Positions 6,067 through 23,651 of a DNA stretch of 27,599 bases are shown here, in pieces. Source of the stretch: a virus; the IMG/VR virus record IMGVR_UViG_3300020054_000308, positions 1 to 27,599 of that record, one strand, 5' to 3'. How positions within the stretch are numbered: the first letter of the stretch is position 1; each line of letters begins with the position of its first letter. The position numbers and the translations under genes are program-made. Under the pieces are notes generated by a model that worked only from the letters and a program-made list of their open reading frames with translations, had not been told where the DNA came from and did no database searches.

Positions 6067-6082
6067 GTCTTCCTAACTAAAT

Positions 6083-6592
6083 TTATCGCTGTTTGTTGCG
6101 AATAATTTTGGCAATGTCCGCTTTCGACGCGGATTTACCGAGACGAGTGAGTTCGTTCTTGATTTCGCGCTCAAGATCAAACTGCTTCTCGATCTGTGCT
6201 GCCGTACGCTTCTTTGCGGGAGCCTTCTTCTTCGCCGAAGGCTTCGTTGCATCCCGCTTAGCAGCAATTTTCTCGCGGCTTGGCTTGGTCGCGTAGAACT
6301 CCTTGTTCCCGGGCGTTGGCTTTACGCGAGACTTGTTCGCTCGGTATTGGGGGGTCTTCTTCACCGCCGTCTTCTTGACCTTGACGTTGCTCTTCGGGTA
6401 CTTGCGTGAAGAGCCGGAAGGAGTCTTCGCCAACTTGCTGATGGCTTTCTTGTCCTTCGAGCGAGCCAAAGCCCTCATTAGGCTTGCGACCATGTAGCCG
6501 AGCGATCCGCTCTCCTGCACCTTGCCTGGAGTAAATACGTCCTTGCGGTTCTTGGAGCGATTTGCGGGTTCACCTTTTTTGTAATTGGGCAT
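6083..6592 (-). CDS. Lys-rich basic protein, histone H1-like composition
   Basis: 169 residues, ATG at 6592. The protein is extremely rich in Lys, Ala, Ser and Pro, with the AKKKAPAKKRTA type of repeat seen in histone H1-like and bacterial HU-tail proteins. A short helix is likely near residues 30-50 (LGYMVASLMRALARSK) and another at the C-terminus, ending IAKIIRNKQR. Such proteins bind nucleic acid non-specifically, so it may condense packaged DNA or enter the host with it. The alternative is a basic scaffold or capsid-lining peptide. The N-terminal KGEPANRSK matches a motif in the two neighbouring genes. Role inferred from composition and position. Confidence 0.7.
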   Translation of the reverse strand: MPNYKKGEPANRSKNRKDVFTPGKVQESGSLGYMVASLMRALARSKDKKAISKLAKTPSGSSRKYPKSNVKVKKTAVKKTPQYRANKSRVKPTPGNKEFYATKPSREKIAAKRDATKPSAKKKAPAKKRTAAQIEKQFDLEREIKNELTRLGKSASKADIAKIIRNKQR

Positions 6593-6594
6593 GA

Positions 6595-6942
6595 CTACTT
6601 CTTCTTTCGCTTCCCGCCGGGCCGGAGGAGGCCCGGGTAGTCCTTGTTTTTGGCGTTGCCAGGCCCTACCGGGTACTTCCTGTTGGGTGGCTCGCCCTTG
6701 CCCCGACGCCGCATCGTGCGAGTCTTGTTCGGCGGCTCGCCTTCACCTAGTCCAGGCTTGCGAACTTTGCCCTTGATCTTCGCCGTTCTGGCCTTCTCAG
6801 GTGCCACCGTTTCGCCCTTGATGCGCTTCGCTTTCGCTACACGCGCGCGAAACCCTCGTGCGTCGTCCTTGTTGATGGCTTTCTTGGCGTCCATCATGCC
6901 CTTCTTCGTGTAGGGGTACTTTTTCCCCTTGACGGTTGGCAC
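6595..6942 (-). CDS. Basic Lys/Gly-rich small virion-block protein
   Basis: 115 residues with a GTG start at 6942; no convincing Shine-Dalgarno is visible, so translation may be coupled to the upstream 50 aa gene, whose stop lies 2 nt away. The composition is Lys/Arg/Gly/Pro-rich with almost no hydrophobic core, suggesting an extended nucleic-acid- or capsid-binding chain. It carries the motif GEPPN(K/R) twice, at residues 68-73 and 83-88. Near-copies occur at the N-termini of the 169 aa and 918 aa products downstream. No family was recognised. Confidence 0.65.
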   Translation of the reverse strand: MPTVKGKKYPYTKKGMMDAKKAINKDDARGFRARVAKAKRIKGETVAPEKARTAKIKGKVRKPGLGEGEPPNKTRTMRRRGKGEPPNRKYPVGPGNAKNKDYPGLLRPGGKRKKK

Positions 6943-6944
6943 GA

Positions 6945-7097
6945 CTACTTGAGTTTGTTGTTGTTGCCCTTGATGCCCTGCGGGTTCGAGCCCTTAGCAA
7001 CATTGCCGCCACCAGCGACGCCGCCACCCATGCTCTTCGGCTGAATAACGCCTCCACCCGTGGGGGCCTTACCGATTCCGCCTTGCTTTCCGATCAT
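6945..7097 (-). CDS. 50 aa glycine-rich small protein
   Basis: ATG at 7097 preceded by GGAGAAAGAA, a clear ribosome binding site; stop TAG at 6947-6945. The product is about one-third Gly, with Gly-rich runs and a basic Asn/Lys tail, and looks unstructured. It sits between the portal and the basic proteins. The N-terminal KQGGIGKAP resembles KRQGGYRAP in the product of 2889-3317. The strong ribosome binding site argues that the gene is real despite its length. Function unknown; a virion assembly or decoration peptide is a guess. Confidence 0.6.
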   Translation of the reverse strand: MIGKQGGIGKAPTGGGVIQPKSMGGGVAGGGNVAKGSNPQGIKGNNNKLK

Positions 7098-7108
7098 TTC
7101 TTTCTCCT

Positions 7109-8863
7109 CTACGCGGGAACTTGCCGAACCACTCGGCCAGCAAGTACGGGATTGCCTGACCCTGTGAGTCCGGCAAGTAACTGTTGCATTGGCGGCGGGC
7201 CTTGCTCCATTGCAGGCATATCGCCGCCAGGTTGCATACCAGGTTGCATGGCAGGCTGCATTGGATCTTGCTCCTGCTCTTCTTCCTCTGGTTGCTCGAA
7301 CGCCCTGGCAACCGCATCCTCAAGAGGGGTGCCTTTCTTGCGTTCGCCGATGACCGTAGCCATCTTCTCGATGATTTCTAGTGGGTTTTGACCCTGCGTA
7401 ACCATCTGTGGGACTGCCGCAGCCAGCGAGGCAACCCCTGCCTTCAATGCGTCGCGCATCTCTTCCATATCAATGGCGCGTTCTTCTTCTGCCGCGTTCA
7501 TCGTGATCGGCAGGTTCCGTCGCGTGAAATTGCGGGAGATCAACTTGTCGCCGCGTGCCTGCAACGCAAACACCAGGGCTCGGTTGGGGTCAAGCCCAGC
7601 CATCAGGCCGTACTCGATGTTGATTCCGTAGTTTCCGTCAATATCGGTCGAGGGCCGGTACTTCAACTTGTACGGGACGCCGTTTGCGCTGCCGGAAACC
7701 TCACGCTGGATGTCTCCGAAGTAAGCATCGTCAATGGCGTACGCCAGGGACAGGGCTTCGCCCAAGGCGTCGCCCAAAATTGATTGTGCGGTCTTTACCT
7801 GCCCGTCGAACCCGGCCATGAGGGCCTTGACGCCCTGACCCGTAACAATGGAAGAGTCCATTTGGCCTGTGCGGGCCTCAGGGAACCTTGTGCCGAACTT
7901 CAACTCGTCTGACAGCAGGTTGTTCTCAGCGAAAGTGTACTGTGGGATGTCTAATGGGATTCGCCGGACTTTTTCTGGACTATTGGATCGAATAACCGCG
8001 TCAGGCCCGATGGACAACTGCGTAACGTCCTGCGGCAATGCAAGTGGTGCCTCCACAGACTTCTGTGTGGCCTCCATCATCAGCAGAGCGAGCCGCGCCT
8101 TCGCGGCGTACACCGGGAGCACGTCATCGAACTGCCCACGGGTCTCTCCGTCGAGGCTAGGCCGCTGCGCGATAGCGACAGGGACGCGCCCCAAGGGGTT
8201 CGGGGTCTTTGCCAGCACCAGTCCTTTGCGTTCCGGCAGAAACATGACGCTCTCGTTCTCGTCATAGAAGCGAACGACCTCCATCATCGAGGATTCGTCG
8301 GTGGAACCGTACATTCCCCGCGTCATGATCTTGTCCGCGTACTCAGGGAACATCGCGGCCAGGTCACCCGCCCTTCGGCGGAACAGGTGGGCGTACGCGA
8401 GGACGCTCCCAAACCGATCTATGTCGTAGTAGGCACCTTCGCACGACTCCACGTGAATGTGGGGGCGGGTTTCCGTGAAGTTAGGCTCAACACGGAGCGG
8501 CACAAAGCCGTAGGTGACGAGTTGATCGGCTGCGCGGATCAAGTTTACGCCCAAACGGGAGGAAGAGAGGTAGTAGTTAGCGATTTTTGTGCGCTTGTCT
8601 GCCTTTGTTCGGGACGAATCATCGAGAGACGAGTCGCCGGATGCGCTGACAGACGGGACGACGCCGATTTGCTCAGACAAGTCCTTGGCTACAACGTCAA
8701 TCAAGTTGGCAATGATCGGCTTTGACCACATGCCCTCGGGAAATAGCCCAGGAAACACGTGCCCGGCTTCGCCAGCGCGAACCATAGCAACTTCACGCAT
8801 ACGCTGATCGCGCTCTCCGTTCCTTTTACGGATTGCGTCAAAGCGTTGAGCGTAATCGGTCAC
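7109..8863 (-). CDS. Phage portal protein
   Basis: 584 residues. The start is GTG at 8863, with AGGAGG 7 nt upstream; the gap to the terminase stop is 11 nt. The gene directly follows the large terminase, the classical position of the portal. The overall pattern is portal-like: a helical N-terminus (residues 1-50, then the hydrophobic IIANLIDVVAKDLSEQIG), a mixed alpha/beta body and a Gln/Met/Pro-rich C-terminal tail with repeated MQP units at about 540-570. The portal forms the dodecameric ring at one capsid vertex through which terminase pumps DNA. I cannot name the portal family by eye, and context is the main support. Confidence 0.8.
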   Translation of the reverse strand: MTDYAQRFDAIRKRNGERDQRMREVAMVRAGEAGHVFPGLFPEGMWSKPIIANLIDVVAKDLSEQIGVVPSVSASGDSSLDDSSRTKADKRTKIANYYLSSSRLGVNLIRAADQLVTYGFVPLRVEPNFTETRPHIHVESCEGAYYDIDRFGSVLAYAHLFRRRAGDLAAMFPEYADKIMTRGMYGSTDESSMMEVVRFYDENESVMFLPERKGLVLAKTPNPLGRVPVAIAQRPSLDGETRGQFDDVLPVYAAKARLALLMMEATQKSVEAPLALPQDVTQLSIGPDAVIRSNSPEKVRRIPLDIPQYTFAENNLLSDELKFGTRFPEARTGQMDSSIVTGQGVKALMAGFDGQVKTAQSILGDALGEALSLAYAIDDAYFGDIQREVSGSANGVPYKLKYRPSTDIDGNYGINIEYGLMAGLDPNRALVFALQARGDKLISRNFTRRNLPITMNAAEEERAIDMEEMRDALKAGVASLAAAVPQMVTQGQNPLEIIEKMATVIGERKKGTPLEDAVARAFEQPEEEEQEQDPMQPAMQPGMQPGGDMPAMEQGPPPMQQLLAGLTGSGNPVLAGRVVRQVPA

Positions 8864-8874
8864 CCGCGTACCTC

Positions 8875-10779
8875 CTAGATTCGGGCGAATTGCTGCGAAG
8901 CAGCAAGATCATCAAGATTTATGACGTAACGAGACTCAATGTCCGCTTTCGTGGCGAACTCGTTCTTTACGAACCTCGAAACCCCCGAGGATTGTGCTAA
9001 AACTTCGCGAGCGACAATCTCGCAGAACCACAGCGCCATCACTGTGTCCATTTTTAGTTTCTTGCCGCGCACCCCCGGCTGCCATGTGACCAACTGCTCG
9101 ATCATTTTCTTCATGTGCTCGCTGCGGGAGGCGTCAGGCAACTCGATCAGGTTGTCGCCTGCGTGCTTAGTGGCCTCCTGGCCCTCTCTCTTGGTCTTTG
9201 TGCCAAACAAGGGGGCCAAGGATGCAACACCAAACTCGGGGTCTGTTTTATTGGTGCTCGTGTGATGCGGACGGTAGGCAATCCCACGGCTGGACAGGAA
9301 CGTCCTGATTTCCTCATCCTGTGTCAGGAATAACTGGAAGGCGTTCGACTCCACGATCACCGTATGCGGCTTGTACGCATCCGCCCACTCTCGGATCAGG
9401 TCACGGATAGCGGCAGGGGTCGGCGATGTCATTACGTAGACATCTATGACGTACCGCTTGTTTGTTCTCCGATCCACGGCGTAAGCAACAGCCGCAGTAT
9501 CTCCAGTCATCGCTGGGTCAATGCCGATTACTCGATAAAAATTCGCTGAATCGGCGGGGTGGCCTGTCGCGCCAGACACCAGTGCCCCCGGCTTCCTCAT
9601 TCCATTCACTGCGCCTCTGACGCATACCGGGTCGAAAATGGCGTCTTCTGCGACATCGAGGTTCTGGTACACCAGCGACCATTTACCTGGCCCAACCTCG
9701 TTGCGAACCGCATTCAGACGCGGCCCGCTCCACCTCTCAAACAACCCATCAGCGTCCGGCGTATCGCTATCCGCCAAAGGTTGCTCACTCTTGGGCCACA
9801 ACGTCGCCCAATCAGCCGTGTCAGGTTTGTAGTCCAGCACGGCAGGCATTGCAAGATATGTCCACGGAACATTCCCGTCCGTGTAATGCTCCGGGTTCCG
9901 CAGTTCCTTGTAAAGATCAATCGGGGCAACGCGAGTACCCACCACCAGCAGTTGACCGCCCCCCGGTGGGAGCCGCGAGGCAACCTCCTGGCGCAGCCAG
10001 TCCATCTGCTTAGGCCACTCCCCAGCGTTAGCCAAGGTCACCACGTCGTCGCACACAATCAGCGACGCACGCGAACCATAGATCTGACCGCCCATCCCGA
10101 GAGCCTCAACGGTCGGATCCTTCTCGCCGGAGTCCCGGGCATCCCCACCCAAATAGATCCTGTTCGCCGCCCACTGGTCAGCAGTCGCCCGGTAACCATC
10201 CGCCGGGCCGAAAGCCACCTGCAAGTCCGCGTACTTCGGGTGCGTCAACCGCTGCTTGATCGCGTACAGGAACTTCTTCGCCTGCTCCTGAGTCTTCGAC
10301 ACAATCAAAACATTGATGTTCGGGTCTCTCGCGATCCGATAAGTGATGTAATTGATGGTAATTGTCATCGACTTCGCATGATTCGGCGGGACGTTCACCA
10401 TCAGCCGAGACAGGCCAGCATTGCCAGGCTCGTAGATCATCTGCTCGGGCAGCCACTCAGGCTCCCGACCCTCCAGCAAGTCCACCACATTCTGCATGTG
10501 CGGCCACACGCGAGTATCCAAGTAACGCTGCGAAAACTCCGAGAAACCAATATCCGATTTACGGGCCGCCGAGGCAGCATCAGACTGCCGCAGGCGGACA
10601 CCATCCACCATCACAGAAAAACCCTCAACCGAACGCCGCTGCGCGTCGTACCACGACCGCGAGCGGCCAACAACTTTCAGGCCATCAGAGATAGTGCGGC
10701 CCTGCCGCACCAAGTCAATCAGTTCTTTACGGGCCTCATCAGCACTAACCCGCCTACGAGACGAAGCATCCTCAGACAT
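8875..10779 (-). CDS. terL: Terminase large subunit with N-terminal helix-turn-helix segment
   Basis: 634 residues from the ATG at 10779. I prefer this start to an in-frame one at 10851 because GGAG lies just upstream. ATPase features: a Walker A-like PPNHAKSMT at 131-139 and Walker B LIVCDD at 240-245. The nuclease domain has acidic residues in IGIDPAMTGDT (D421), VIVESN (E477) and KMDTV (D578), the RNase H-like arrangement of terminase nucleases. The protein cuts concatemeric DNA and drives packaging through the portal encoded next. Oddity: residues 13-50 (EARKELIDLVRQGRTISDGL, then VVGRSRSWYDAQRR) read as a helix-turn-helix of the kind found in small terminases, and no separate small-subunit gene is visible here. 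A 449-codon open frame on the other strand (9559-10908) is an antisense shadow. Confidence 0.93.
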   Translation of the reverse strand: MSEDASSRRRVSADEARKELIDLVRQGRTISDGLKVVGRSRSWYDAQRRSVEGFSVMVDGVRLRQSDAASAARKSDIGFSEFSQRYLDTRVWPHMQNVVDLLEGREPEWLPEQMIYEPGNAGLSRLMVNVPPNHAKSMTITINYITYRIARDPNINVLIVSKTQEQAKKFLYAIKQRLTHPKYADLQVAFGPADGYRATADQWAANRIYLGGDARDSGEKDPTVEALGMGGQIYGSRASLIVCDDVVTLANAGEWPKQMDWLRQEVASRLPPGGGQLLVVGTRVAPIDLYKELRNPEHYTDGNVPWTYLAMPAVLDYKPDTADWATLWPKSEQPLADSDTPDADGLFERWSGPRLNAVRNEVGPGKWSLVYQNLDVAEDAIFDPVCVRGAVNGMRKPGALVSGATGHPADSANFYRVIGIDPAMTGDTAAVAYAVDRRTNKRYVIDVYVMTSPTPAAIRDLIREWADAYKPHTVIVESNAFQLFLTQDEEIRTFLSSRGIAYRPHHTSTNKTDPEFGVASLAPLFGTKTKREGQEATKHAGDNLIELPDASRSEHMKKMIEQLVTWQPGVRGKKLKMDTVMALWFCEIVAREVLAQSSGVSRFVKNEFATKADIESRYVINLDDLAASQQFARI

Positions 10780-10918
10780 AACACTCCACAGGGGGACAAC
10801 AGGGGCAAAAATCCAGGGGGGCCGCTGGATAGACCTCACCCACTTATCCACAAAAAAAATACGAACATCTCGGCGCGAAGCGCCTCAATGTTTTTTTCTT
10901 CCCTATAAAAGAAGAGGG

Positions 10919-10967
10919 CTTGAAAAGGGGGTGATTTCAACCCCCCAGGCCAAACTTTTTTTTCAAG
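10919..10967. repeat. Nested inverted repeat (possible cruciform or terminator)
   Basis: Outer arms CTTGAAAA (10919-10926) and TTTTCAAG (10960-10967) are perfect 8-bp complements. Inside them GGGGGT (10927-10932) pairs with ACCCCC (10940-10945). An 8-T run (10956-10963) lies 10 nt after the inner hairpin. It could act as a right-going intrinsic terminator, an operator or an origin structure. Confidence 0.6.
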
Positions 10968-10970
10968 ATG

Positions 10971-10989
10971 CCCAGAATGCCCCAGAATG
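10971..10989. repeat. 10-bp tandem repeat, two copies
   Basis: CCCAGAATG occurs at 10971-10979 and again at 10981-10989, separated by one C. It directly follows the nested inverted repeat. Two copies at about one helical turn could bind a protein dimer; no binding protein is identified. Confidence 0.5.
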
Positions 10990-11227
10990 TAGGCAAAAAT
11001 TTTTCTCAGGACAGGGGGTGTGGGGGGTGGGGGCCACCTTTACAAACCCCAGGTCGGCGGGGGGGTGGCCCTCGCCCGCGCGTGCAACGCTTGCATTGTC
11101 CACAGCACGCCCGTCGCCCGTCGCGCGCCACCGCGCGCACGTCGCCGTACCCGATGGGGAGGCCGAGGCCGACTGTCCGTCTGATGGCTGGCACATGCTA
11201 ACTCTAATGCTCAAATGCATGGGTGTA

Positions 11228-11236
11228 TGTTAGAAT
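11228..11236 (+). promoter_or_regulatory. Candidate extended -10 promoter of the accessory operon
   Basis: TGT-TAGAAT matches the extended -10 form (TGn-TAnnnT) used by actinobacterial housekeeping sigma factors. It lies about 55 nt before the first plus-strand gene, downstream of the GC-rich stretch. I see no good -35 box at 16-18 nt, which is tolerable for an extended -10 promoter. A small CCGG-AAAGA-CCGG hairpin follows at 11247-11259 in the predicted leader. Confidence 0.45.
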
Positions 11237-11291
11237 AGATGTATCGCCGGAAAGACCGGTTGATAGATTACATGAAAGGCTGGTGGTCATA

Positions 11292-11576
11292 GTGACCGTC
11301 ATCGCACAGAGTGCGCGCGTCACGGCGCGCACAGCGCACGGCGCGTTGCAAGCATTGCTTATGCAGCGCGACGATTGGGAGGACATCGTTCTCCGCGCGA
11401 AAGATATGTTCGAGGGTCAGGACGATTACTTCGGCACGCATTGGCTGCTGGAGGAATACAAGGAGGACGGCATTCTCAGCGATGAGCAATGGTTCTACTT
11501 CGAGCACAATATCGACGAGTCAGCATTCGCAGAGTTCATGCGTTGCATGAACGGCATGTGCAAGAACTGCCGATAG
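11292..11576 (+). CDS. Hypothetical acidic protein, first gene of the accessory operon
   Basis: The frame is open from 11223; I place the start at GTG 11292, after GGTGGT, giving 94 residues. ATG at 11361 (71 residues) is an alternative with no clear ribosome binding site. The second half is strongly acidic and aromatic (DDWEDIVLRAKDMFEGQDDY, later WFYFEHNIDESAFAEF) and looks helical. The C-terminus carries three Cys (CMNGMCKNC). No family is recognised. Being first after the promoter-like element, it is probably expressed early. A regulator or small inhibitor is conceivable but not shown. Confidence 0.6.
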   Translation: MTVIAQSARVTARTAHGALQALLMQRDDWEDIVLRAKDMFEGQDDYFGTHWLLEEYKEDGILSDEQWFYFEHNIDESAFAEFMRCMNGMCKNCR

Positions 11577-11602: not shown

Positions 11603-12727
11603 ATGTCCGAAGAAACAACGGAAGAAACCGACGAGGCTATCGAGCCTCCGATGTACGACTGCGATCGTTGCGGTCGCTCAGTCCATCAAGTCCGGTGTGC
11701 CGACAGAGGTAGCCGCGACTTGTGCCACTCGTGCTACTCCACGGTCGTCCACTTTTGCGACGAGTGTGGGGATAGTTGCGATCGAGCCGACTACCCGCTG
11801 CTAACGGTGTCTGACCCTACCGGCTGGCAGACTACGCAAGACTTGTGCGAGTCTTGCCATGACCATATCGCCACATGGTGCGACGAGTGCTGCGAATACC
11901 ACTTCGAGGAAAACGGCTCGTGCAATGGCGAGTTGTCCGGCTTGGAAGATTACTCGTACAAGCCCGAGCCCATCTTCCACGGTGACGACGGCAAGCACCG
12001 TCACTTCGGCGTGGAGATTGAGATGGAGAGTGAGCACGGCAACGGGCAGGACGCGCTCGATAACTTCCGCGACACGTTCCGTCATACCGAGTTCTACTAC
12101 AAGGGTGACGGTTCGCTCTACTCCGCGGACGCTATCGAGATGGTGAGCCACCCACGCACTCTCGACTCGTGGCACGAGATACTGCCACGACTGATCGACA
12201 GTATGCGGTATGCCCGTGATGTTGGTATGCGCTCGTGGAATACCAGCACCTGCGGGATACACATTCACATTGACTCGCGTGCCTTCGGCGAGAGCAGCGC
12301 GCACCTGTACCGCTTCGCTCAGTTCATCTACCGCAACGGGGCAGCGATGACTCGACTAGCGGGACGTGGTGACGTGGACTACTCGCACTGCTTCGACTCA
12401 TGGGATCGCAGGACATACCTGGCCCACAACGTCAAGCGACACAAGCGGGGTATGTCTGCCGGTGATCGGTACATGTGGATCAACCTGCAAAACCGCAACA
12501 CCGTGGAGGTACGCATGTTCCGTGGCAGCCTCAAGCCCGAGCGACTGCTCGCCAACATCGAGTTCCTCCACGCTTTGATCGAATACACCCGCACCATGAC
12601 CACGCGCCAAGCGTTCGCTGGTGCTCTCAAGTTTGACGTGTTCGCACACGACGCGCTCATGCAGCGCGACAAGTACCCACACTTGGCGGCAATGCTTGCC
12701 GACAAGTTCGATATGGCTTCGGCCTAG
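11603..12727 (+). CDS. Putative amidoligase with N-terminal zinc-ribbon array
   Basis: 374 residues from ATG 11603, preceded by AAAGGAAAG; an in-frame extension to 11489 overlaps the previous gene and lacks protein character. Residues 20-107 hold about 14 Cys in CxxC-type pairs (20/23, 41/44, 52/55/59, 82/85, 93/96/97, 107), reading as two or three zinc ribbons. The C-terminal domain matches the amidoligase_2 family (glutamine synthetase-like COOH-NH2 ligases): FGVEIEME at 135-142, DGSL at 169-172, EMVSHP at 179-184, CGIHIHID at 217-224 and NTVEVRMFRGSL at 299-310. Family members are predicted to use ATP and metal to join a carboxylate to an amine. The substrate is unknown. The next gene encodes a glutamine amidotransferase, and a gamma-glutamylcyclotransferase-like gene lies downstream, supporting a shared conjugation pathway. 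The family call is by motif; the biochemistry is inferred. Confidence 0.85.
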   Translation: MSEETTEETDEAIEPPMYDCDRCGRSVHQVRCADRGSRDLCHSCYSTVVHFCDECGDSCDRADYPLLTVSDPTGWQTTQDLCESCHDHIATWCDECCEYHFEENGSCNGELSGLEDYSYKPEPIFHGDDGKHRHFGVEIEMESEHGNGQDALDNFRDTFRHTEFYYKGDGSLYSADAIEMVSHPRTLDSWHEILPRLIDSMRYARDVGMRSWNTSTCGIHIHIDSRAFGESSAHLYRFAQFIYRNGAAMTRLAGRGDVDYSHCFDSWDRRTYLAHNVKRHKRGMSAGDRYMWINLQNRNTVEVRMFRGSLKPERLLANIEFLHALIEYTRTMTTRQAFAGALKFDVFAHDALMQRDKYPHLAAMLADKFDMASA

Positions 12728-12740
12728 ATAGGAGCACATC

Positions 12741-13586
12741 ATGTGTTTACTCGCTTACTGTGACCACGAGGCTACTCCCGACTACGATGGCCTGTGGAAT
12801 GCAAGTATCAACAATCCCGACGGCTTCGGGTGGGCAGTCCACCTCGGAGACCGCATTATCCAAGCGCACAGCATGGAAGCCTCGGTTGCTATCGAGTCCT
12901 ACGAGGAGGCACTCAAGGAGCACCCTGGCTCAGCGTCCATGTATCACGCTCGCTATGCCACCCACGGCACGATTGACCTAGCCAACTGCCACCCATTCAC
13001 CGTCGGTGAGGGCGGCACAGTCCTCGCACACAACGGCGTCATGCCGAAGGCCCCATTGGAGAAAGACCGCAGCGATACCCGCTGGTTCGCCGAGGTCGAG
13101 TTGCCCCGCCGTGGCTTGCAGATACTCGACAAGCCTAACAAGTGGGCCAAGTTGGAGGCGTGGCTGTCGTCCAAGGTGGTGCTGTTCACCACTGAGAAGT
13201 CACTCAAGTACGGCATTTACATTCTCAACGAGCAAGACGGCGAGTGGGTGGACGGTATCTGGTGGAGCAACGACTCGTACAAGTCCGTCTACACCTACGC
13301 AAGCCTGGCTCGTGCGTACTCTGCTCACACCGTCATCGCCAAGGAAGATGACTACGAGGCCACTCCCGAGGCGTGCCGCTCCTGCGGCAGCATACTGAGT
13401 TACGACGAGGCAATGGTGTTCGGCTACTGCTACACCTGCGAGTCTTGCCTCGACTGCGGGGAGGACTTCGGCCTGTGCCTGTGCTACCAGGGCAAGCAGG
13501 CTACGCAATGGGCCGTCGGTGGGTGGGCCGAGGAGGACTTGGCTCGTGCCACTGACATCGCTGTATCCATCATCAAGAATAACTAG
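12741..13586 (+). CDS. Class II glutamine amidotransferase with C-terminal Cys cluster
   Basis: 281 residues; ATG 12741 follows TAGGAG at 6 nt. The protein begins Met-Cys, so Met removal exposes Cys2, the nucleophile of class II (Ntn) amidotransferases. The other active-site blocks are present: NNPDGFG (24-30), HARYATHG (69-76), NCHPF (82-86), HNG (97-99) and SDTRWF (111-116), as in GlmS/PurF-type domains. Such domains hydrolyse glutamine to glutamate and ammonia, and relatives act as Ntn peptidases. There is no synthase domain. After residue 205 comes an unusual tail with 8 Cys (212, 215, 230, 233, 236, 239, 246, 248), probably binding zinc. It lies 13 nt after the amidoligase gene and may feed it ammonia or process its product. 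Function of the pair inferred. Confidence 0.88.
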   Translation: MCLLAYCDHEATPDYDGLWNASINNPDGFGWAVHLGDRIIQAHSMEASVAIESYEEALKEHPGSASMYHARYATHGTIDLANCHPFTVGEGGTVLAHNGVMPKAPLEKDRSDTRWFAEVELPRRGLQILDKPNKWAKLEAWLSSKVVLFTTEKSLKYGIYILNEQDGEWVDGIWWSNDSYKSVYTYASLARAYSAHTVIAKEDDYEATPEACRSCGSILSYDEAMVFGYCYTCESCLDCGEDFGLCLCYQGKQATQWAVGGWAEEDLARATDIAVSIIKNN

Positions 13587-13595
13587 GAGGTCGTA

Positions 13596-13745
13596 ATGAC
13601 TGACGTATCCGAGATCGAGCACCAACTGAACGAGATCAGCCTGCGTCTCGCAACACTCGGCGACATTGACTGGCACATCAAGGAACTGACCGATCAGATG
13701 GCCCTGCTCGTCAGTGCTGTGCAGGCCATAGCCGATAGGAGTTAG
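13596..13745 (+). CDS. Small helical hypothetical protein (49 aa)
   Basis: ATG 13596 has an excellent AGGAGG site overlapping the end of the amidotransferase gene; stop TAG at 13743-13745. The product is short, acidic and heptad-like (MTDVSEIEHQLNEISLRLAT at the start), so it probably forms a coiled-coil dimer. It has no Cys or Lys-rich tag. It could be an adaptor of the ligase/amidotransferase pair or a small substrate; no family is recognised. Confidence 0.65.
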   Translation: MTDVSEIEHQLNEISLRLATLGDIDWHIKELTDQMALLVSAVQAIADRS

Positions 13746-13747
13746 CC

Positions 13748-14191
13748 ATGAGGTACGAGGCTTACTACAACCTGCACAGGCAATGCCTGTCGGCACGGCC
13801 CATCGGTGGCCGTGTCCAGCACTATCAGTTCCTCTGCCTGTCGGAAGCACGGTTCGCCGTGCAACCTGCCGGTAGGCAGAGGGTGCTGGAAGAACAGAAG
13901 AAGAACGTCCACGCTTTTGTGCGTGGAGAACTAGTGACCTGGGGTGACCACCGTGTGAGGGCGCACCCTTACGACGGCATTGACAGTGCGGTCAGCGTGG
14001 ATATCTTCCGCAAGCATGACGGCTACGAGGAGGTCACTTACAACCCGTATCAGTACGAGTCGTTTGTGCTCAAGCACGACGAGTCACCGATCTATCAGGC
14101 CCATCACGCCTGGGTTATCGACAAGCACATCTTCGCTTACAAGTATGATACATTTGGTATCAAGGAAGATAGGAGGAGCACTGTTGCGTAA
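13748..14191 (+). CDS. Conserved-looking phage hypothetical protein (147 aa)
   Basis: ATG 13748 is 2 nt after the previous stop, with TAGGAG 7-8 nt upstream. The protein is a mixed, Tyr/His-rich globular sequence with no transmembrane segment and no motif I can assign. Features include FAVQPAGRQRV followed by a Lys-rich helix and NVHAFVRGEL near the middle. A beta-rich second half ends in alternating aromatic residues. Its end overlaps the next gene by 8 nt. It belongs to the amidoligase operon by position, but nothing links it to that chemistry directly. Confidence 0.7.
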   Translation: MRYEAYYNLHRQCLSARPIGGRVQHYQFLCLSEARFAVQPAGRQRVLEEQKKNVHAFVRGELVTWGDHRVRAHPYDGIDSAVSVDIFRKHDGYEEVTYNPYQYESFVLKHDESPIYQAHHAWVIDKHIFAYKYDTFGIKEDRRSTVA

Positions 14192-14336
14192 CACAGCAGA
14201 GTACGAGGAGTACCTGACCAACCCTCTGGAGGATCGCTACCCCGACGACGATCCTCGCACACCGGAGGAGAGAGAAGCACACCGTAAGGCTGTGAGTGAT
14301 TACCTGAGAGAGAGAGGTATGAAAACAAATGAGTGA
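14184..14336 (+). CDS. Small acidic hypothetical protein with TTG start
   Basis: A 50-residue product whose likely start is TTG 14184, because AGGAGG lies 7 nt before it. It overlaps the previous gene by 8 nt and the next by 8 nt, the overlap size used repeatedly in this genome. The protein is very charged (PEEREAHRKAVSDYLRERG near the C-terminus) with an acidic Asp/Pro middle. No family is recognised. A small partner or substrate protein is possible. Confidence 0.6.
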   Translation: MRNTAEYEEYLTNPLEDRYPDDDPRTPEEREAHRKAVSDYLRERGMKTNE

Positions 14337-15108
14337 CATCACCACACGTATCGGCGCACTACTGAGCAAGGCAGAGGGAACGACCAACGACATAGAGCGA
14401 GACACCTACATCGCTAAGGCACAGGAGTTGGCAACTAAGTACGCGATAGATATGGAAGCCGCACGCCTAGCGGCAGGCGGGGAGGCACGCAAGGATACCC
14501 CCGTGGCTGAGACAGTCAAACTGTTCGACAGGTATGACCGATCACAAACGAGGTCATTCTTTGTGAACCTCTACCTGGCTATCGGTAGGGCCAACAACCT
14601 GCGCTTCCTGATTGACCGTGACTCACGGTACGTCGTGGCGCATGGCTTCCAGGGTGACATCGACATCACGACACAGATGTACAACAGCCTGTCCCTGCAA
14701 ATGGTGGCAGCGTCCGAGCGTTACATCAAGACAGACGATTGGCGCGACCGCGCAGGCTTCTTCGACAATCAGGGTGAGTGGAGGAAGATGACTGCGAGGA
14801 CAGCACGACGCTCGTTCTACTCAGGCTTCGCCTCCACCATCGGTGAACGCTGCCGCAATGCGGCACGCAGCATGGAGGAGCAGGAGGTGGACGTCAATGG
14901 CACGACCACCACGGGTGCTCTCGTCCTAGCGGACAGGCGCAGCGAGGTGGACAAGTTCTACGCCAGCGTGCCGAAGGGCCGTGGCTCGTGGGGAGGTGGG
15001 AGTTCTATCAGTGGCGCAGCCTATGGCGCAGGCCAAGAGGCAGGAAGGAATGCCTCACTCGGTAACAGCAGCGCAGTACGCTCTGGTCGTACTGCAATCA
15101 GCAACTAG
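14329..15108 (+). CDS. DUF2786-type protein
   Basis: 259 residues from ATG 14329. The N-terminal about 45 residues (RIGALLSKAEGTTNDIERDT, then AQELATKYAIDMEAAR) match the DUF2786 signature: a short helical domain with the pattern LLxKAExTxxxxExxxxxxKAxxLxxKY. The rest resembles the extended C-terminal part often seen in actinobacterial and phage members: an Arg/Ala-rich helical region, YSGFASTIGERC near 167-178, and a Gly/Ser-rich tail from about 220 that looks disordered. The biochemical function of the family is not established. Here it lies between the amidotransferase and cyclotransferase genes, so it may belong to that pathway. Confidence 0.75.
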   Translation: MSDITTRIGALLSKAEGTTNDIERDTYIAKAQELATKYAIDMEAARLAAGGEARKDTPVAETVKLFDRYDRSQTRSFFVNLYLAIGRANNLRFLIDRDSRYVVAHGFQGDIDITTQMYNSLSLQMVAASERYIKTDDWRDRAGFFDNQGEWRKMTARTARRSFYSGFASTIGERCRNAARSMEEQEVDVNGTTTTGALVLADRRSEVDKFYASVPKGRGSWGGGSSISGAAYGAGQEAGRNASLGNSSAVRSGRTAISN

Positions 15109-15120
15109 GAAGGAAGAGCA

Positions 15121-15690
15121 ATGGGTTACTTTGTATCCATAACAAGAGCAGAGTTCGCAGTACCTGAGAATGAGGAGGTACTGAAAGTCCTCAAGGACGC
15201 GAACTGGAAGTACCACGATTGGAAGCGTGGCGGTAGTTTCGGGGGAGAGCGTGAGGAGAAGTGGTTCTCATGGATGACCCCTAACTACGACGAGCAAGTC
15301 AACCTCGTGTATGACGTGTTCCTGCAACTCGGGTTCGACGTGTCGGCGGACGGCAAGATGGTGCAACTCAACTCCTACGACAACAAGACAGGGCAAGAGG
15401 ACTTGTTCCTCGCAATCGTTGCACCCTACGTGGAGGAAGGATCGTTCATCGAATGGGTGGGCGAGGACGGTACGACGTGGCGGCACGAGGTCATCGACGG
15501 CAAACTGACGGTGGCCGAGGGCGTGAAGCAGTTCATCACACCCCAGCCGTACAAACTCCTGGCATACGAGATCCCCAAGACGGGGAGGAACAGCGAGGAC
15601 TTACTCGGTTACTGGATCGAGTGCGACCCGTACTCCACCATGCCACCGAGTGAGCAGTTCGCCAGGGAGACAGGGAGTTTGCCTGCGTGA
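15121..15690 (+). CDS. Hypothetical protein (189 aa)
   Basis: ATG 15121 follows AGGAAGGAAGAG. The protein looks globular alpha/beta, Trp/Tyr-rich and acidic, with no Cys until near the C-terminus. I see a repeated strand-helix pattern: MGYFVSITRAEFAVPENEEV at the start, then FSWMTPNYDEQVNLVYDVF and later EWVGEDGTTWRHEVIDGK. I cannot assign a family. Its stop overlaps the next gene by 3 nt (GTGA), so translation is probably coupled. Confidence 0.75.
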   Translation: MGYFVSITRAEFAVPENEEVLKVLKDANWKYHDWKRGGSFGGEREEKWFSWMTPNYDEQVNLVYDVFLQLGFDVSADGKMVQLNSYDNKTGQEDLFLAIVAPYVEEGSFIEWVGEDGTTWRHEVIDGKLTVAEGVKQFITPQPYKLLAYEIPKTGRNSEDLLGYWIECDPYSTMPPSEQFARETGSLPA

Positions 15691-15821
15691 TTAGTTCATA
15701 CTGCAAGAAACACCACGGGCAGGCCACAGAATGTGATCGCTGCCCAGGCCCAGGGATCGTCCTCGGGATGCCGATGGATTGTTCCTGCAAATGTCACGAA
15801 AAGAAAGGGGAAGACGAATGA
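15687..15821 (+). CDS. Cys/His-rich mini-protein (44 aa)
   Basis: GTG 15687 overlaps the previous stop (GTGA) and the end overlaps the following gene (ATGA). Six Cys and three His are packed into 44 residues, including CKKHH, CDRCP and CSCKCH, so it almost certainly binds a metal, probably zinc. It echoes the Cys-rich arrays on the amidoligase and the amidotransferase. No known family is recognised. It could be a metal-binding adaptor or a modified peptide substrate. Confidence 0.65.
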   Translation: MISSYCKKHHGQATECDRCPGPGIVLGMPMDCSCKCHEKKGEDE

Positions 15822-15913
15822 GTCTGCCGTATGACGACGAGTATGGAATAAAGATCAACGACGAGTATCACATGGATCAAATCCTTTGGGATGACGACAA
15901 GGAGGAGAAGTGA
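15818..15913 (+). CDS. Tiny acidic peptide ORF (31 aa)
   Basis: ATG 15818 overlaps the previous stop by 4 nt (ATGA), and its stop TGA overlaps the next start by 4 nt (GTGA), so it is held in frame by coupling on both sides. The product is extremely acidic, ending ILWDDDKEEK, and Tyr-rich. It sits directly before the gamma-glutamylcyclotransferase-like gene. Its only function might be coupling, but size and acidity also make it a candidate substrate for an amidoligase. No direct evidence for either. Confidence 0.55.
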   Translation: MSLPYDDEYGIKINDEYHMDQILWDDDKEEK

Positions 15914-16422
15914 ACATCACACCAAGTAAGGACAACCCCGTACCCCTGTTTGTGTACGGGTCGTTGCGTGAAGGGCAGCCACTGCACGAGTGGTACCTGA
16001 GTGGTCACACGATGGCCCTGGCCTACACTCACAGCGACACCGCCCACTACGAGTTGCGGGTCACACACACCAACGCACCCTTCCCCTACATGGTGGAATC
16101 AGACCTGCCGTACAACAGTTACGTGTACGGCGAGGTGACCCACATCACTGACCCCCAGGTGCTCGCACGGATACGCCACCTGGAGGAGAGTGCTGGCTAC
16201 GAGACCAGGCAAATCTACATCAACACCACCGATAAACTGCCTTTCGGCGGGACAGATACGACGATCACCCTGGAGACCTACGAGGCCCTGGCCTTTGTGT
16301 ACCCCGACTCTGAAATTGGGGCTTACCGTATCCAGGGTGGCGACTGGTTGCGGTACGTCAAGGGCTGGTCAGAACTCACCCCCGAACACGCAGGTACGCC
16401 ACCGGCTCAGGAAATGGTATGA
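15910..16422 (+). CDS. Gamma-glutamylcyclotransferase-like (AIG2/GGCT fold) protein
   Basis: 170 residues from GTG 15910, with a strong AGGAGGAGAA ribosome binding site. The N-terminus has the family hallmark FVYGSLREG (14-22), the loop that binds the gamma-glutamyl group. The catalytic acid is probably in the HLEESAGYETR segment (E92/E93), at the position of the LDxxEGxxYxR motif of GGCT-like proteins. The beta-barrel strands YVYGEVTHI and YEALAFVY fit the fold. Known relatives convert gamma-glutamyl-amines or peptides to 5-oxoproline plus the free amine. In this operon it could remove or process what the amidoligase makes. The C-terminal about 30 residues are a Pro-rich extension. Fold call fairly firm, substrate unknown. 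Confidence 0.87.
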   Translation: MNITPSKDNPVPLFVYGSLREGQPLHEWYLSGHTMALAYTHSDTAHYELRVTHTNAPFPYMVESDLPYNSYVYGEVTHITDPQVLARIRHLEESAGYETRQIYINTTDKLPFGGTDTTITLETYEALAFVYPDSEIGAYRIQGGDWLRYVKGWSELTPEHAGTPPAQEMV

Positions 16423-16601
16423 GCGCGTTCGTGATCTTTACCCTGATGGTGCTCGTGGGTGCGGTGCTCCTTGCGCACCACATGGGTAAAGAAATAGGAG
16501 AAGAGGAGGGGTACGTGCGTGCCTGGAAGGCGTCACGCAAATGCCCCTCCTGCGGGGACTTATTAGTCCGTGATACCCTTTCGTGCTACCATGACAGATA
16601 G
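16419..16601 (+). CDS. Small membrane protein with cytoplasmic CxxC tail
   Basis: 60 residues; ATG 16419 overlaps the previous stop by 4 nt. Residues 3-20 (AFVIFTLMVLVGAVLLAH) form one clear transmembrane helix at the N-terminus. It is followed by a Glu-rich linker and a half zinc ribbon (CPSCGDLLVRDTLSCYH). The predicted topology puts the Cys-rich tail in the cytoplasm. A membrane anchor for operon products or a holin/antiholin-like protein are both possible; no family is recognised. The end of the gene forms one arm of a hairpin (16583-16604). Confidence 0.65.
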   Translation: MSAFVIFTLMVLVGAVLLAHHMGKEIGEEEGYVRAWKASRKCPSCGDLLVRDTLSCYHDR

Positions 16602-19188: not shown

Positions 19189-19833
19189 CTATTCGATTGC
19201 CCTCACAAGGTCTGCGAGGTACTGCGCTCCTTGATTCACAAGCGTACTATTGACGTCCTCCCCCAGGGGCAGCGACACGCGCACCGCATCTGGCAGCATT
19301 TCAGTCAGTTTCTTGGCCAACTCTTGACCAGGATTACTGCCGTCCTCCTTCAGGTCGTTATCACACATGATAAGCACCCGCTCGATGCCGTCAAAGCAAC
19401 GACGGAAGTGAGGCTTCCATCCGTTCACACCAGGCACAGCCACGGCAGGGAAGCCAGCAACAGTAGCGGCAATGGCGTCGAGTTCGCCCTCCACTATGAG
19501 GATGTGATCGAAGGCTTCAATGATCGCCTGAGCGTTGAATAAGTGATGCCTCTGTCCAGTTGGTGATTGGTAGCGAGGGCTGCCCTCCGTCAGTCGTCGG
19601 AACTTGAAGCCGACCACACCGGCAGGCGTGATGTACGGGATCGACAACATGCCAGTGAATCTGTGGTCGTGTCCAGGTTCCGGCTCGGCGACGTAGCCGA
19701 GAAGAAACTGCGGGGCTGCATCCAGTAAGCCTCGGCCACCAAGGTATTCCTCTGCTGGTGAGCCACCGAGTTCGAGGTGGTACACGTGGGCTGCACGTGT
19801 CCACAAGTCCATCAACTTTTCGTTAGGTTTCAT
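19189..19833 (-). CDS. TOPRIM-domain primase protein (split DnaG-like core)
   Basis: 214 residues from ATG 19833; only a weak GAAG precedes it. The N-terminal half follows the DnaG core: AEEYLGGRGLLDAAPQFLLG (28-46), then GMLSIPYITPAGVVGFKFRR (61-80), PRYQSP and HHLFNA. The TOPRIM site follows: VEGELDA with Glu115 (114-120) and CDND (157-160, DxD), with GQELAKKL after it. The catalytic metal residues are therefore intact. A primase makes RNA primers for DNA synthesis. The zinc-binding domain is missing from this protein but is encoded by the gene at 20620-20958, three genes upstream in the operon. The helicase-interaction domain is absent. Confidence 0.87.
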   Translation of the reverse strand: MKPNEKLMDLWTRAAHVYHLELGGSPAEEYLGGRGLLDAAPQFLLGYVAEPEPGHDHRFTGMLSIPYITPAGVVGFKFRRLTEGSPRYQSPTGQRHHLFNAQAIIEAFDHILIVEGELDAIAATVAGFPAVAVPGVNGWKPHFRRCFDGIERVLIMCDNDLKEDGSNPGQELAKKLTEMLPDAVRVSLPLGEDVNSTLVNQGAQYLADLVRAIE

Positions 19834-20446: not shown

Positions 20447-20623
20447 CTACTCTTCATCTTCTTCAGGGTACAAATCTCGAAACGCTGGATCGGGGGTGAA
20501 TCCTACCGAACCGTTTTCGCTAGTGGTGAGGCGGTCAGCCTCGCCCTTCTCTTCCTCCACGTTGGTGGTCAGATCGAGGTTGATATCCAGTGTCCAGCCA
20601 AGATACTCCACAGTAAGTCTCAT
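20447..20623 (-). CDS. Small acidic hypothetical protein (58 aa)
   Basis: ATG 20623 overlaps the zinc-finger primase stop by 4 nt (ATGA), so I prefer it to the longer open frame. The N-terminus is beta-like (MRLTVEYLGWTLDINLDL) and the C-terminal half is strongly acidic, ending YPEEDEE. Acidic tails in replication proteins often mediate contacts with DNA-binding partners, as in SSB, but no family is assigned here. Confidence 0.55.
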   Translation of the reverse strand: MRLTVEYLGWTLDINLDLTTNVEEEKGEADRLTTSENGSVGFTPDPAFRDLYPEEDEE

Positions 20624-20958
20624 GATGTGGCCCGAAGCCTGGGTGGAGTCCACCGCTTACCCTTAGAACGCCTAGGAATGCTCCAAATCGGCTCTGTCGA
20701 GGAGCCTGACAGGCTTTCTACCATCCTACGAGCATCCTGATATGACCCCTGCTCCATCGCTTGTACGAGGGCGATGGGGCCACCGCCTGCACCGCAAGCA
20801 TGGCAGTGCCAAAGACCCTTCTGGCGGTTCACGGAGGCACTCGGGACTCGATCATCGTGAGCGGGGCACTTGATCGAACGCTCGCCATAGCCAGGCTCCG
20901 GTAGCCCATAGTGCTCGAACACAGCAAGCAACTGCTGCTCCATCACGTCCTCGTTCAT
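20620..20958 (-). CDS. CHC2-type zinc-finger protein, primase N-terminal half
   Basis: 112 residues; ATG 20958 overlaps the previous stop by 4 nt, preferred over an upstream GTG. Residues 31-60 carry the DnaG zinc finger: CPAHDD (Cys31, His34), then WHCHACGAGG (Cys52, Cys55). This is the zinc pattern that recognises DNA template sequence in bacterial primases. The following helix IALVQAMEQGSYQDARRMVE fits the DnaG order. The protein ends with a basic Arg/Lys tail and lacks TOPRIM, which is encoded separately at 19189-19833. The two probably cooperate as a two-subunit primase. Confidence 0.87.
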   Translation of the reverse strand: MNEDVMEQQLLAVFEHYGLPEPGYGERSIKCPAHDDRVPSASVNRQKGLWHCHACGAGGGPIALVQAMEQGSYQDARRMVESLSGSSTEPIWSIPRRSKGKRWTPPRLRATS

Positions 20959-21320
20959 GCCACATGACCCCACTTCAGCAGGTTGATGAACGTGTCGATG
21001 GTCATGACGACCCGACCCTCACCCGTGCCAGCCTGACGAGTCTTAGTCATCACCACGGGGATCGTGTTCCGGTCATACTTGAGGTCATAGTTGCAAGACT
21101 CAACGTCGGCCTCCCGAAGGAAGCCCTTCATCTGACTCCAGACATCCTTGACATTCTTCGCCTCAATCACGATGTCGAAGTCGGCCCCTGTTATGCAAAC
21201 GTCACCGATGTCCTTCGATCCTGCGCGAGGAAGGCGACGAGCCTTCACGCCTTGAGTGTTCAAGTGATCCTCGACGTCACGCTCCCATTGAGAGCCTTTG
21301 CGTTTGTTTGCTGTGCTCAC
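20955..21320 (-). CDS. Holliday-junction-resolvase-like PD-(D/E)XK nuclease
   Basis: 121 residues; GTG 21320 overlaps the WhiB stop (GTGA). The N-terminus NKRKGSQWERDVEDHL (5-20, Glu13) and the core AGSKDIGDVCI with FDIVIEAKN (Asp40, Glu53, Lys55) match the small archaeal Hjc-like/VSR-like PD-(D/E)XK fold. These enzymes cut branched DNA, and phages use them to trim replication intermediates before packaging. The C-terminal half (IPVVMTKTR, VVMTIDTFINLLKW) supplies the remaining strands. A plain site-specific endonuclease is the alternative. Confidence 0.82.
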   Translation of the reverse strand: MSTANKRKGSQWERDVEDHLNTQGVKARRLPRAGSKDIGDVCITGADFDIVIEAKNVKDVWSQMKGFLREADVESCNYDLKYDRNTIPVVMTKTRQAGTGEGRVVMTIDTFINLLKWGHVA

Positions 21321-22542: not shown

Positions 22543-22983
22543 TTATCGCTGCGGCCAGATCGGTTCTGCCTCAACGGCACCCTTCGGGAAGGGCTTCGGC
22601 CCCTTCACTGGGTCGAACCAGCCGACGTACACGCGGCCTGCCTTGTTTGTGCCCTTCTTGCGTGCGTACTTGCCGCGACCATCGGGCAGATCGGGTGCAT
22701 CGGGGTGCCCGTATGTCCACTCATTTCCGTACCTGTCCACCTGTGTGTCGATGGCGGTCGCTTCCTCGACTACCTGCGTGGCGACTCCGGCCCCGGCGAG
22801 GGCCTCAACTGCCGCCTGCGTGTCATCCTTCTGACTAGAGCCTTGCAGCACCGCCGTAAGTTCTCGGAGGTCAGCAATGCGCTGAGTCATTTCTTCCTTC
22901 GTGTCTGCTCTTCCGGTCAGCAGATCATTGTTTGGGCCGACCTTGATGGTCAGGCTAAACGGGGATTCAGTAGTGCTATTCAC
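22543..22983 (-). CDS. Hypothetical replication-module protein (146 aa)
   Basis: GTG 22983 overlaps the nuclease stop (GTGA) with GGAGG upstream; the open frame continues further back inside the nuclease gene, but that part is rejected. Order: a beta strand (FSLTIKVG), a helix with Glu/Arg repeats, an Ala/Val-rich segment, then a Gly/Lys/Trp-rich C-terminal region (GRVYVGWFDPVKG, ending EPIWPQR). No Cys. It lies between the nuclease and the ATPase, so a single-strand DNA-binding or accessory role is plausible, but I do not recognise the family. Confidence 0.65.
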   Translation of the reverse strand: MNSTTESPFSLTIKVGPNNDLLTGRADTKEEMTQRIADLRELTAVLQGSSQKDDTQAAVEALAGAGVATQVVEEATAIDTQVDRYGNEWTYGHPDAPDLPDGRGKYARKKGTNKAGRVYVGWFDPVKGPKPFPKGAVEAEPIWPQR

Positions 22984-23651
22984 TTGCCCTCCTTTGTCCA
23001 TATTTCTAACGGGAACTCTGCTGACTTGAGGCCAGCCACGGCAGGGCAGTATGCCCTGAATGAGCAGTAAGAGCAATGGTCGCCGACGTGGGGTGGGAAG
23101 AATCCTGTTGCCATTTGCTCGTTCATCGAGGCGAACATGAAGTCAAAGTAGTCAATGCCCCACGGTGCAAGATCGACAAGATCAGAAAGTTCACCCTTCC
23201 GGCTCATGTAGAACGCACCCCACTTGGGGCGCACGCCGTAGGCTTTCTCAATCGCACTTGCGTACAACGCCAACTGTTCTTGCCCGTAGGGCACACGCTG
23301 GCCCGTCTTGTAGTCAACGACGATCAGGTCTGTGCCGTTGGTGTAGACGCAATCGACAACCAGGCGCACCGGAGTATCACCGAACGACACCTCGGCTTCC
23401 CACTCAATGCCAGGCTTGCCGTCGGGCAGGGTGGCAATCGCCCACCCTGAATTTTGATACCACTCCAGGTACGCCTCGACTTGGCGCAGACCCTCCGACT
23501 GCCAGAAGTCCAGCGTTTCCCCATCGGGGTTTGCCTTGGTGCGACGACCAGCCACACGCCACTGCTCTGCTGGCACATCACTGCGTGCCTCGACATCGGC
23601 AACGGCCCGTTGGAATACTTCCAACCACTTCTCAGAAATGTCAGTTAGCAC
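22980..23651 (-). CDS. RecB/Cas4-like PD-(D/E)XK nuclease, C-terminal part
   Basis: 223 residues from GTG 23651, with GGAGG 7 nt upstream. Catalytic motifs: VVDCVY (Asp100), VVDYKTG (Asp113, Lys115) and YGQEQLALY (Gln124/Gln126). Near the C-terminus, HCSYCSFRAYCP gives Cys193, Cys196 and Cys202, three of the four [4Fe-4S] ligands of Cas4/AddB-type nucleases. The N-terminal motif with the first Cys and the GxxxH block is missing here but is present in the small ORF at 23817-24005. Such enzymes process DNA ends during recombination or packaging. The protein would need its small partner for an intact metal cluster and active site. Confidence 0.86.
   Translation of the reverse strand: MLTDISEKWLEVFQRAVADVEARSDVPAEQWRVAGRRTKANPDGETLDFWQSEGLRQVEAYLEWYQNSGWAIATLPDGKPGIEWEAEVSFGDTPVRLVVDCVYTNGTDLIVVDYKTGQRVPYGQEQLALYASAIEKAYGVRPKWGAFYMSRKGELSDLVDLAPWGIDYFDFMFASMNEQMATGFFPPHVGDHCSYCSFRAYCPAVAGLKSAEFPLEIWTKEGK

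Follow-up and report, generated by a model that had tools for sequence, protein, structure and literature searches.

The 27,599-nucleotide virus record IMGVR_UViG_3300020054_000308 of IMG/VR, analysed whole (the window) and, at 27.6 kb, probably a fragment of a virus genome, encodes an amidoligase of the Amidoligase_2 family (AL), a class II glutamine amidotransferase-domain protein (GAT) and a gamma-glutamyl(amine) cyclotransferase family protein (GGCT), whose co-occurrence is not due to chance. AL and GAT form a core that is retained jointly while its surroundings change, and GGCT, though optional, is genuinely associated with the pair. Judging from protein families, predicted models and analogy, AL and GAT, along with GGCT where present, are tentatively read as a unit that would write and erase gamma-glutamyl (or related amide) groups, resembling EgtA/EgtC.

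Searching with a profile yielded 80 viral loci and, with loci found earlier added, 85 GAT genes. AL lies directly upstream and on the same strand in 82 of these, with a median gap of 5 nt; of the other three, one sits at the end of its contig, one is followed by AL on a contig of 2.2 kb, and one is at a locus where AL was not recognised. When the proteins within 5 kb were compared among 32 representative loci (496 pairs), 402 pairs had no other protein in common, and it is this, together with the adjacency, that shows AL and GAT to be kept together amid changing surroundings. By tblastn the two genes also adjoin in the Marvin group and in the Methylophilales phages MEP401/402. No AL-GAT fusion protein was seen. 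No Amidoligase_2 turned up among 50 viral contigs taken at random (2.46 Mb), a weaker negative because control genomes of the family also went unmatched, though the same search finds the AL of the window. The pair splits into subfamilies by its hydrolase, which is either GATase_4/EgtC-type or GATase_6/GFAT-type. One viral contig of 117.5 kb (L099) carries two tandem AL-GAT pairs at 5944-10822, with a GGACT gene 2.6 kb upstream.

The GGACT family, to which GGCT belongs, occurs in 17 of the 92 AL/GAT records and in none of the same 50 random contigs (p = 0.0004); counted by lineage, the subfamily of the window has it in about 6 of 32 (p = 0.003). In 14 of the 17 records the three genes share a strand and span about 3 kb. 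Of the approximately six lineages of the window's subfamily, five have GGACT no more than about 8 kb away on the same strand, and in a second subfamily it directly follows GAT (G050-G062). In the window, 2.3 kb and six or seven other ORFs (open reading frames) separate GGCT from GAT. In a relative with 62% AL identity, the 16.7-kb record L028, no GGACT was found; other small ORFs and a further 311-amino-acid (aa) ORF occupy its place. GGCT is thus considered optional, as it is missing there, varies in position elsewhere and occurs in a minority of records. An original prediction made from the letters of this DNA had treated the three enzymes as equal partners, which does not hold for a strict pair with an optional third gene, while the recurring neighbourhood on which that prediction staked its case was indeed found. 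The 311-aa ORF of L028 (5595-6530), directly after the place where GGCT is missing, may be DUF932-like.

AL scores 40.4 bits against PF12224 (Pfam gathering cut-off 22), a family that also matches 25 of 29 AL relatives. Five CxxC motifs (residues 20, 41, 52, 82 and 93) lie N-terminal to the catalytic domain, in a region that is zinc-ribbon-like. Across 29 diverse sequences G136-x-E138-x-E140, D169, G218-x-H220-x-H222, R255 and T300-x-E302-x-R304 are invariant, and profiles confirmed remote homology to the amidoligases of LUZ24 and Kharcho. A search of solved structures with the AL sequence found nothing, and one with its profile only zinc fingers and other chance-level matches, so that the fold assignment rests on a predicted model (predicted local distance difference test, pLDDT, 86). 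This model resembles YbdK, plant glutamate-cysteine ligase, glutamine synthetases and gamma-glutamylmethylamide synthetase, but its template-modelling (TM) scores over the whole chain are low; for YbdK, Foldseek gave E = 5.5e-6 and a probability of 1.00, yet TM-scores of 0.36-0.38. AL is accordingly predicted to be an ATP-dependent ligase with a glutamine-synthetase-like fold. Two Arthrobacter phage amidoligases (L003 8615-9586 and L270 4049-5059) carry a weak N-terminal helix-turn-helix (E = 0.04 and 0.0065, respectively) where the window's AL subfamily has its zinc-ribbon motifs.

GAT is marginal when taken alone against GATase_4 (PF13230; 23.2 bits, cut-off 23), a family matched by 28 of 31 GAT family members. 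The protein begins Met-Cys, placing Cys2 at the position of the N-terminal nucleophile, and 31 sequences share invariant C2, N25-x-D27-G28-x-G30, H69-x-R71, T74, G76, H84, HNG97-99 and D112; H84-P85 is also kept. The N-terminal Cys, the glutamine-site HxR, the HNG and the Asp expected of class II enzymes are therefore all present. Most of these columns align with the GlmS and PurF chains of the PDB, and NNPDGFG aligns to NGDGFG of 3mdn, the DGFG signature of GATase_4. The predicted model (pLDDT 82.5) matches both the glutaminase domain of GlmS and EgtC, the TM-scores being higher for the latter (about 0.45/0.53 versus 0.39/0.45). The GAT profile recovered no relative in a host search of 84,980 prokaryote genomes, a weak search resting on one short motif only. 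GGCT scores 57 bits against PF06094 (cut-off 22.8) and keeps the VYGSL motif and the family Glu (LEESAGY), as in aligned phage members. By their residues AL, GAT and GGCT all look catalytically competent. The family of each protein, the ORF coordinates, the Met-Cys start, the zinc-ribbon-like region of AL and the YGSL motif had all been given correctly by the original prediction.

Sets of these three families have been published for UFV-P2/LUZ24-like phages and Pseudoalteromonas PSA-HP1 (PMC3890496, PMC5498523) and for phage U17 (PMC11945000), and they occur adjacent in Arthrobacter phages, so the suggestion that the full set might be undescribed had to be given up. Since 2009 the amidoligase, GAT and GGCT of phiEco32/LUZ24-like phages have gone by the name of a peptidoglycan-modification module (Iyer 2009 and Hardies 2013, as relayed in PMC5498523). 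This interpretation, taken up in PMC5498523, PMC11945000 and PMC11253131, citing Iyer 2009, was put forward as a prediction. As in that module, the window has Amidoligase_2, class II GAT and GGCT/AIG2 on one strand, and the order AL-GAT-...-GGCT is likewise that of LUZ24 (AL, gp18; GAT, gp19; RimK-like, gp21; GGCT, gp22). The window GAT is GATase_4-type, whereas that of LUZ24 is GATase_6 (92 bits); the window differs further in the zinc-ribbon-like regions of AL and GAT and in a GGCT set apart by unrelated ORFs. The COOH-NH2 ligase (PF14395) was found neither in the scanned ORFs of the window nor in 49 related records, although the LUZ24 positive control was recovered. No Pfam ATP-grasp was detected in the scanned window ORFs, but Pfam also misses LUZ24 gp21 and the window is probably incomplete. 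By its gene content the window set is a reduced variant of the phiEco32/LUZ24 module and not a plain member, because the families are the same and one defining component, the COOH-NH2 ligase, is missing.

The nearest counterparts of the pair itself are Mycobacterium phage Marvin gp105-gp106 (about 35% identity to the window GAT and 26% to AL) and the pair of MEP401/402, each of the same subfamily, adjacent and in the same order; this pair has already been noted in both (PMC10580990). No GGACT was found in Marvin or MEP402. The window AL-GAT is, on sequence comparison, a new member of the Marvin-type pair. In the Arthrobacter phages Salgado (gp97-99) and Kharcho (gp64-66) all three families are adjacent on one strand, as in the window set, but in the order GGCT-AL-GAT, and their AL and GAT belong to other subfamilies (GATase_6/7), with the weak helix-turn-helix in place of zinc ribbons. 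EgtA is not an Amidoligase_2 protein; EgtA and EgtC nevertheless combine a gamma-glutamylcysteine ligase with a class II GAT-fold amidohydrolase, a pairing like that predicted for the window, and the GAT model has a fold match to EgtC. The two are named in mycobacterial ergothioneine synthesis, in a single operon (PMC6154287). No ergothioneine genes were recognised among the window ORFs scanned.

The analysis directly supports the family assignments, the integrity of the active-site residues, the resemblance in fold, the strict adjacency of AL and GAT across otherwise dissimilar phages and an association of GGCT that exceeds chance. On the reading favoured here, AL would use ATP to form an amide bond, in which the gamma-carboxyl of glutamate is most likely joined to an acceptor amine. 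GAT, as an N-terminal-cysteine hydrolase, would cleave a gamma-glutamyl amide, its target being either free glutamine or the glutamyl group that the acceptor carries. In viruses that have it, GGCT may offer a second route of removal, releasing the gamma-glutamyl group as 5-oxoproline. A gamma-glutamyl mark might thus be written and erased by these enzymes jointly, or serve as a temporary handle in the manner of EgtA and EgtC; we infer the glutamyl specificity, the direction of each reaction and the sharing of one substrate by AL and GAT. The leading candidate acceptors are a host cell-wall component, as in the published idea, or a macromolecule recognised via the zinc-ribbon-like regions. The ligate/trim cycle of the original prediction survives insofar as one bond-forming and two bond-undoing glutamyl/amide enzymes are plausible; its naming of a peptide, protein or cell-wall substrate was overstated. 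Several observations weigh against the write-and-erase reading. GAT barely exceeds its Pfam cut-off, its sequence profiles recover GlmS and PurF and not EgtC, and whole-chain TM-scores are low (0.3-0.5). Residues alone cannot separate hydrolysis from amidation, because the glutamine pocket is common to ammonia-feeding glutaminases. GGCT is missing from most AL-GAT records, though many of these are fragments, and the cycle therefore cannot depend on it.

The same residues would also suit a split glutamine-dependent amide synthetase, possible though somewhat unlikely, in which GAT would hydrolyse glutamine and pass the ammonia to AL for conversion of an ATP-activated carboxylate to a carboxamide; a peptidoglycan stem peptide, modified much as by MurT-GatD, would be one such target. 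The strict, often overlapping AL-GAT order suits a stoichiometric complex, the invariant glutamine-pocket residues align to GlmS and PurF, and ammonia is usable by a ligase of the glutamine synthetase fold; such a scheme, however, leaves GGCT without a role and is not accompanied by any AL-GAT fusion. Write-and-erase is favoured over amidation because characterised enzymes of GATase_4, the family of GAT, hydrolyse gamma-glutamyl amides, as EgtC and DUG3 do. A peptidoglycan-modification module in the published sense, creating new side-chain linkages that block superinfection or prime lysis, would account for the shared families and gene order and has the literature interpretation behind it, but it is unlikely here, given the missing COOH-NH2 ligase, the lack of a recognised ATP-grasp among the scanned window ORFs or of a wall-binding domain in the proteins, and the fact that the published idea is itself a prediction. 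That AL, GAT and GGCT are independent accessory genes sharing a transcript by chance is very improbable: the distance of GGCT from GAT and the other small ORFs at its place in L028 would fit, but for AL and GAT the near-universal pairing already refutes it, and GGCT is significantly enriched and turns up again in other lineages, as a direct neighbour of the pair in Kharcho/Salgado and in G050-G062. A further version of the write-and-erase reading, in which the zinc-ribbon AL and the EgtC-type GAT would mark a macromolecule (protein or nucleic acid) with a gamma-glutamyl or amide group and take it off again, the zinc ribbons serving to recognise the target, is improbable as well; if true, it would represent a reversible virus-encoded modification so far undescribed.

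Phage amidoligase modules have been predicted since 2009 to rework cell walls or tag molecules, and the literature surveyed gives no demonstrated product. The question is now narrowed to two adjacent genes travelling jointly through otherwise dissimilar phages, including Marvin, which grows on Mycobacterium smegmatis mc2 155, a laboratory strain, and the subfamilies with different hydrolases imply distinct, testable chemistry.

The host of the window virus is likely an actinobacterium, since the nearest relatives of its terminase (about 45% identity) are from Streptomyces phages and two unclassified records, and it encodes WhiB as well as a protein resembling L5 gp82. The three genes (Table 1) lie in a plus-strand block at 11.2-17.5 kb, flanked by minus-strand terminase/structural genes and minus-strand replication genes. 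Most junctions in the run have gaps of 2-13 nt or short overlaps, and this tight packing on one strand makes the operon of the original prediction a reasonable description. That prediction was right about the DUF2786 protein between the enzymes and wrong in leaving the ORF at 13748-14191 unassigned; nothing was found that links the DUF2786 protein or the mini-ORFs functionally with the enzymes. Promoter-like matches in the window are at chance level (3 versus 2.7 expected), an Rfam search of the window gave no match, and the 4.8-kb segment matched none of the phage records searched at the DNA level.

Table 1. Plus-strand genes and ORFs of the AL-GAT-GGCT run, with window coordinates.
Feature	Coordinates	Strand	Family, evidence or conservation
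117-aa ORF upstream of AL	11223..11576	+	no family; homologues directly upstream of AL in L005 (60%) and L007/L008 (34%)
AL, Amidoligase_2 with N-terminal zinc-ribbon-like region, predicted glutamine-synthetase-fold carboxylate-amine ligase	11603..12727	+	PF12224
GAT, class II glutamine amidotransferase domain (GATase_4/EgtC-like) with C-terminal Cys-rich zinc-ribbon-like tail	12741..13586	+	PF13230
49-aa ORF without confident family	13596..13745	+	kept in near relatives only
Mycobacterium phage L5 gp82 family protein	13748..14191	+	PF25735, E = 2.4e-25; not recovered in L007/L028 relative
DUF2786 + DUF7168 protein	14329..15108	+	Pfam; kept in L007/L028 (76%)
189-aa protein, phrog_38862	15121..15690	+	E = 2.2e-26
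44-aa Cys-containing ORF	15687..15821	+	ORF list and comparison with relatives
44-aa ORF overlapping GGCT start	15779..15913	+	ORF list
GGCT, gamma-glutamyl(amine) cyclotransferase family, GTG start, optional cassette member	15910..16422	+	PF06094
60-aa ORF, start overlapping GGCT stop, hydrophobic N-terminus (by eye), one CxxC	16419..16601	+	also in L028, where GGCT is missing

Between the minus-strand terminase and the putative plus-strand operon lies a non-coding block (window 10915-11060; L028 828-965) that is conserved with the 62%-identical relative and reads GGGGTGATTTCAACCCCCCA ... AGGACAGGGGGT.TGGGGGGTGGGGGCCA. It has no Rfam match, and its exact core occurs in four viral contigs only, all of them close relatives; it could be a packaging site or control region. 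DNA-base modification was considered as a role and rejected, as no modification enzymes were recognised in the scanned ORFs of this incomplete record. Two proteins of the PD-(D/E)XK nuclease family are encoded on the minus strand near primase/helicase pieces (20958-21320 and 22983-23651), and the primase of the window is split into a zinc-finger ORF (20623-20973) and a Toprim ORF (19192-19833).

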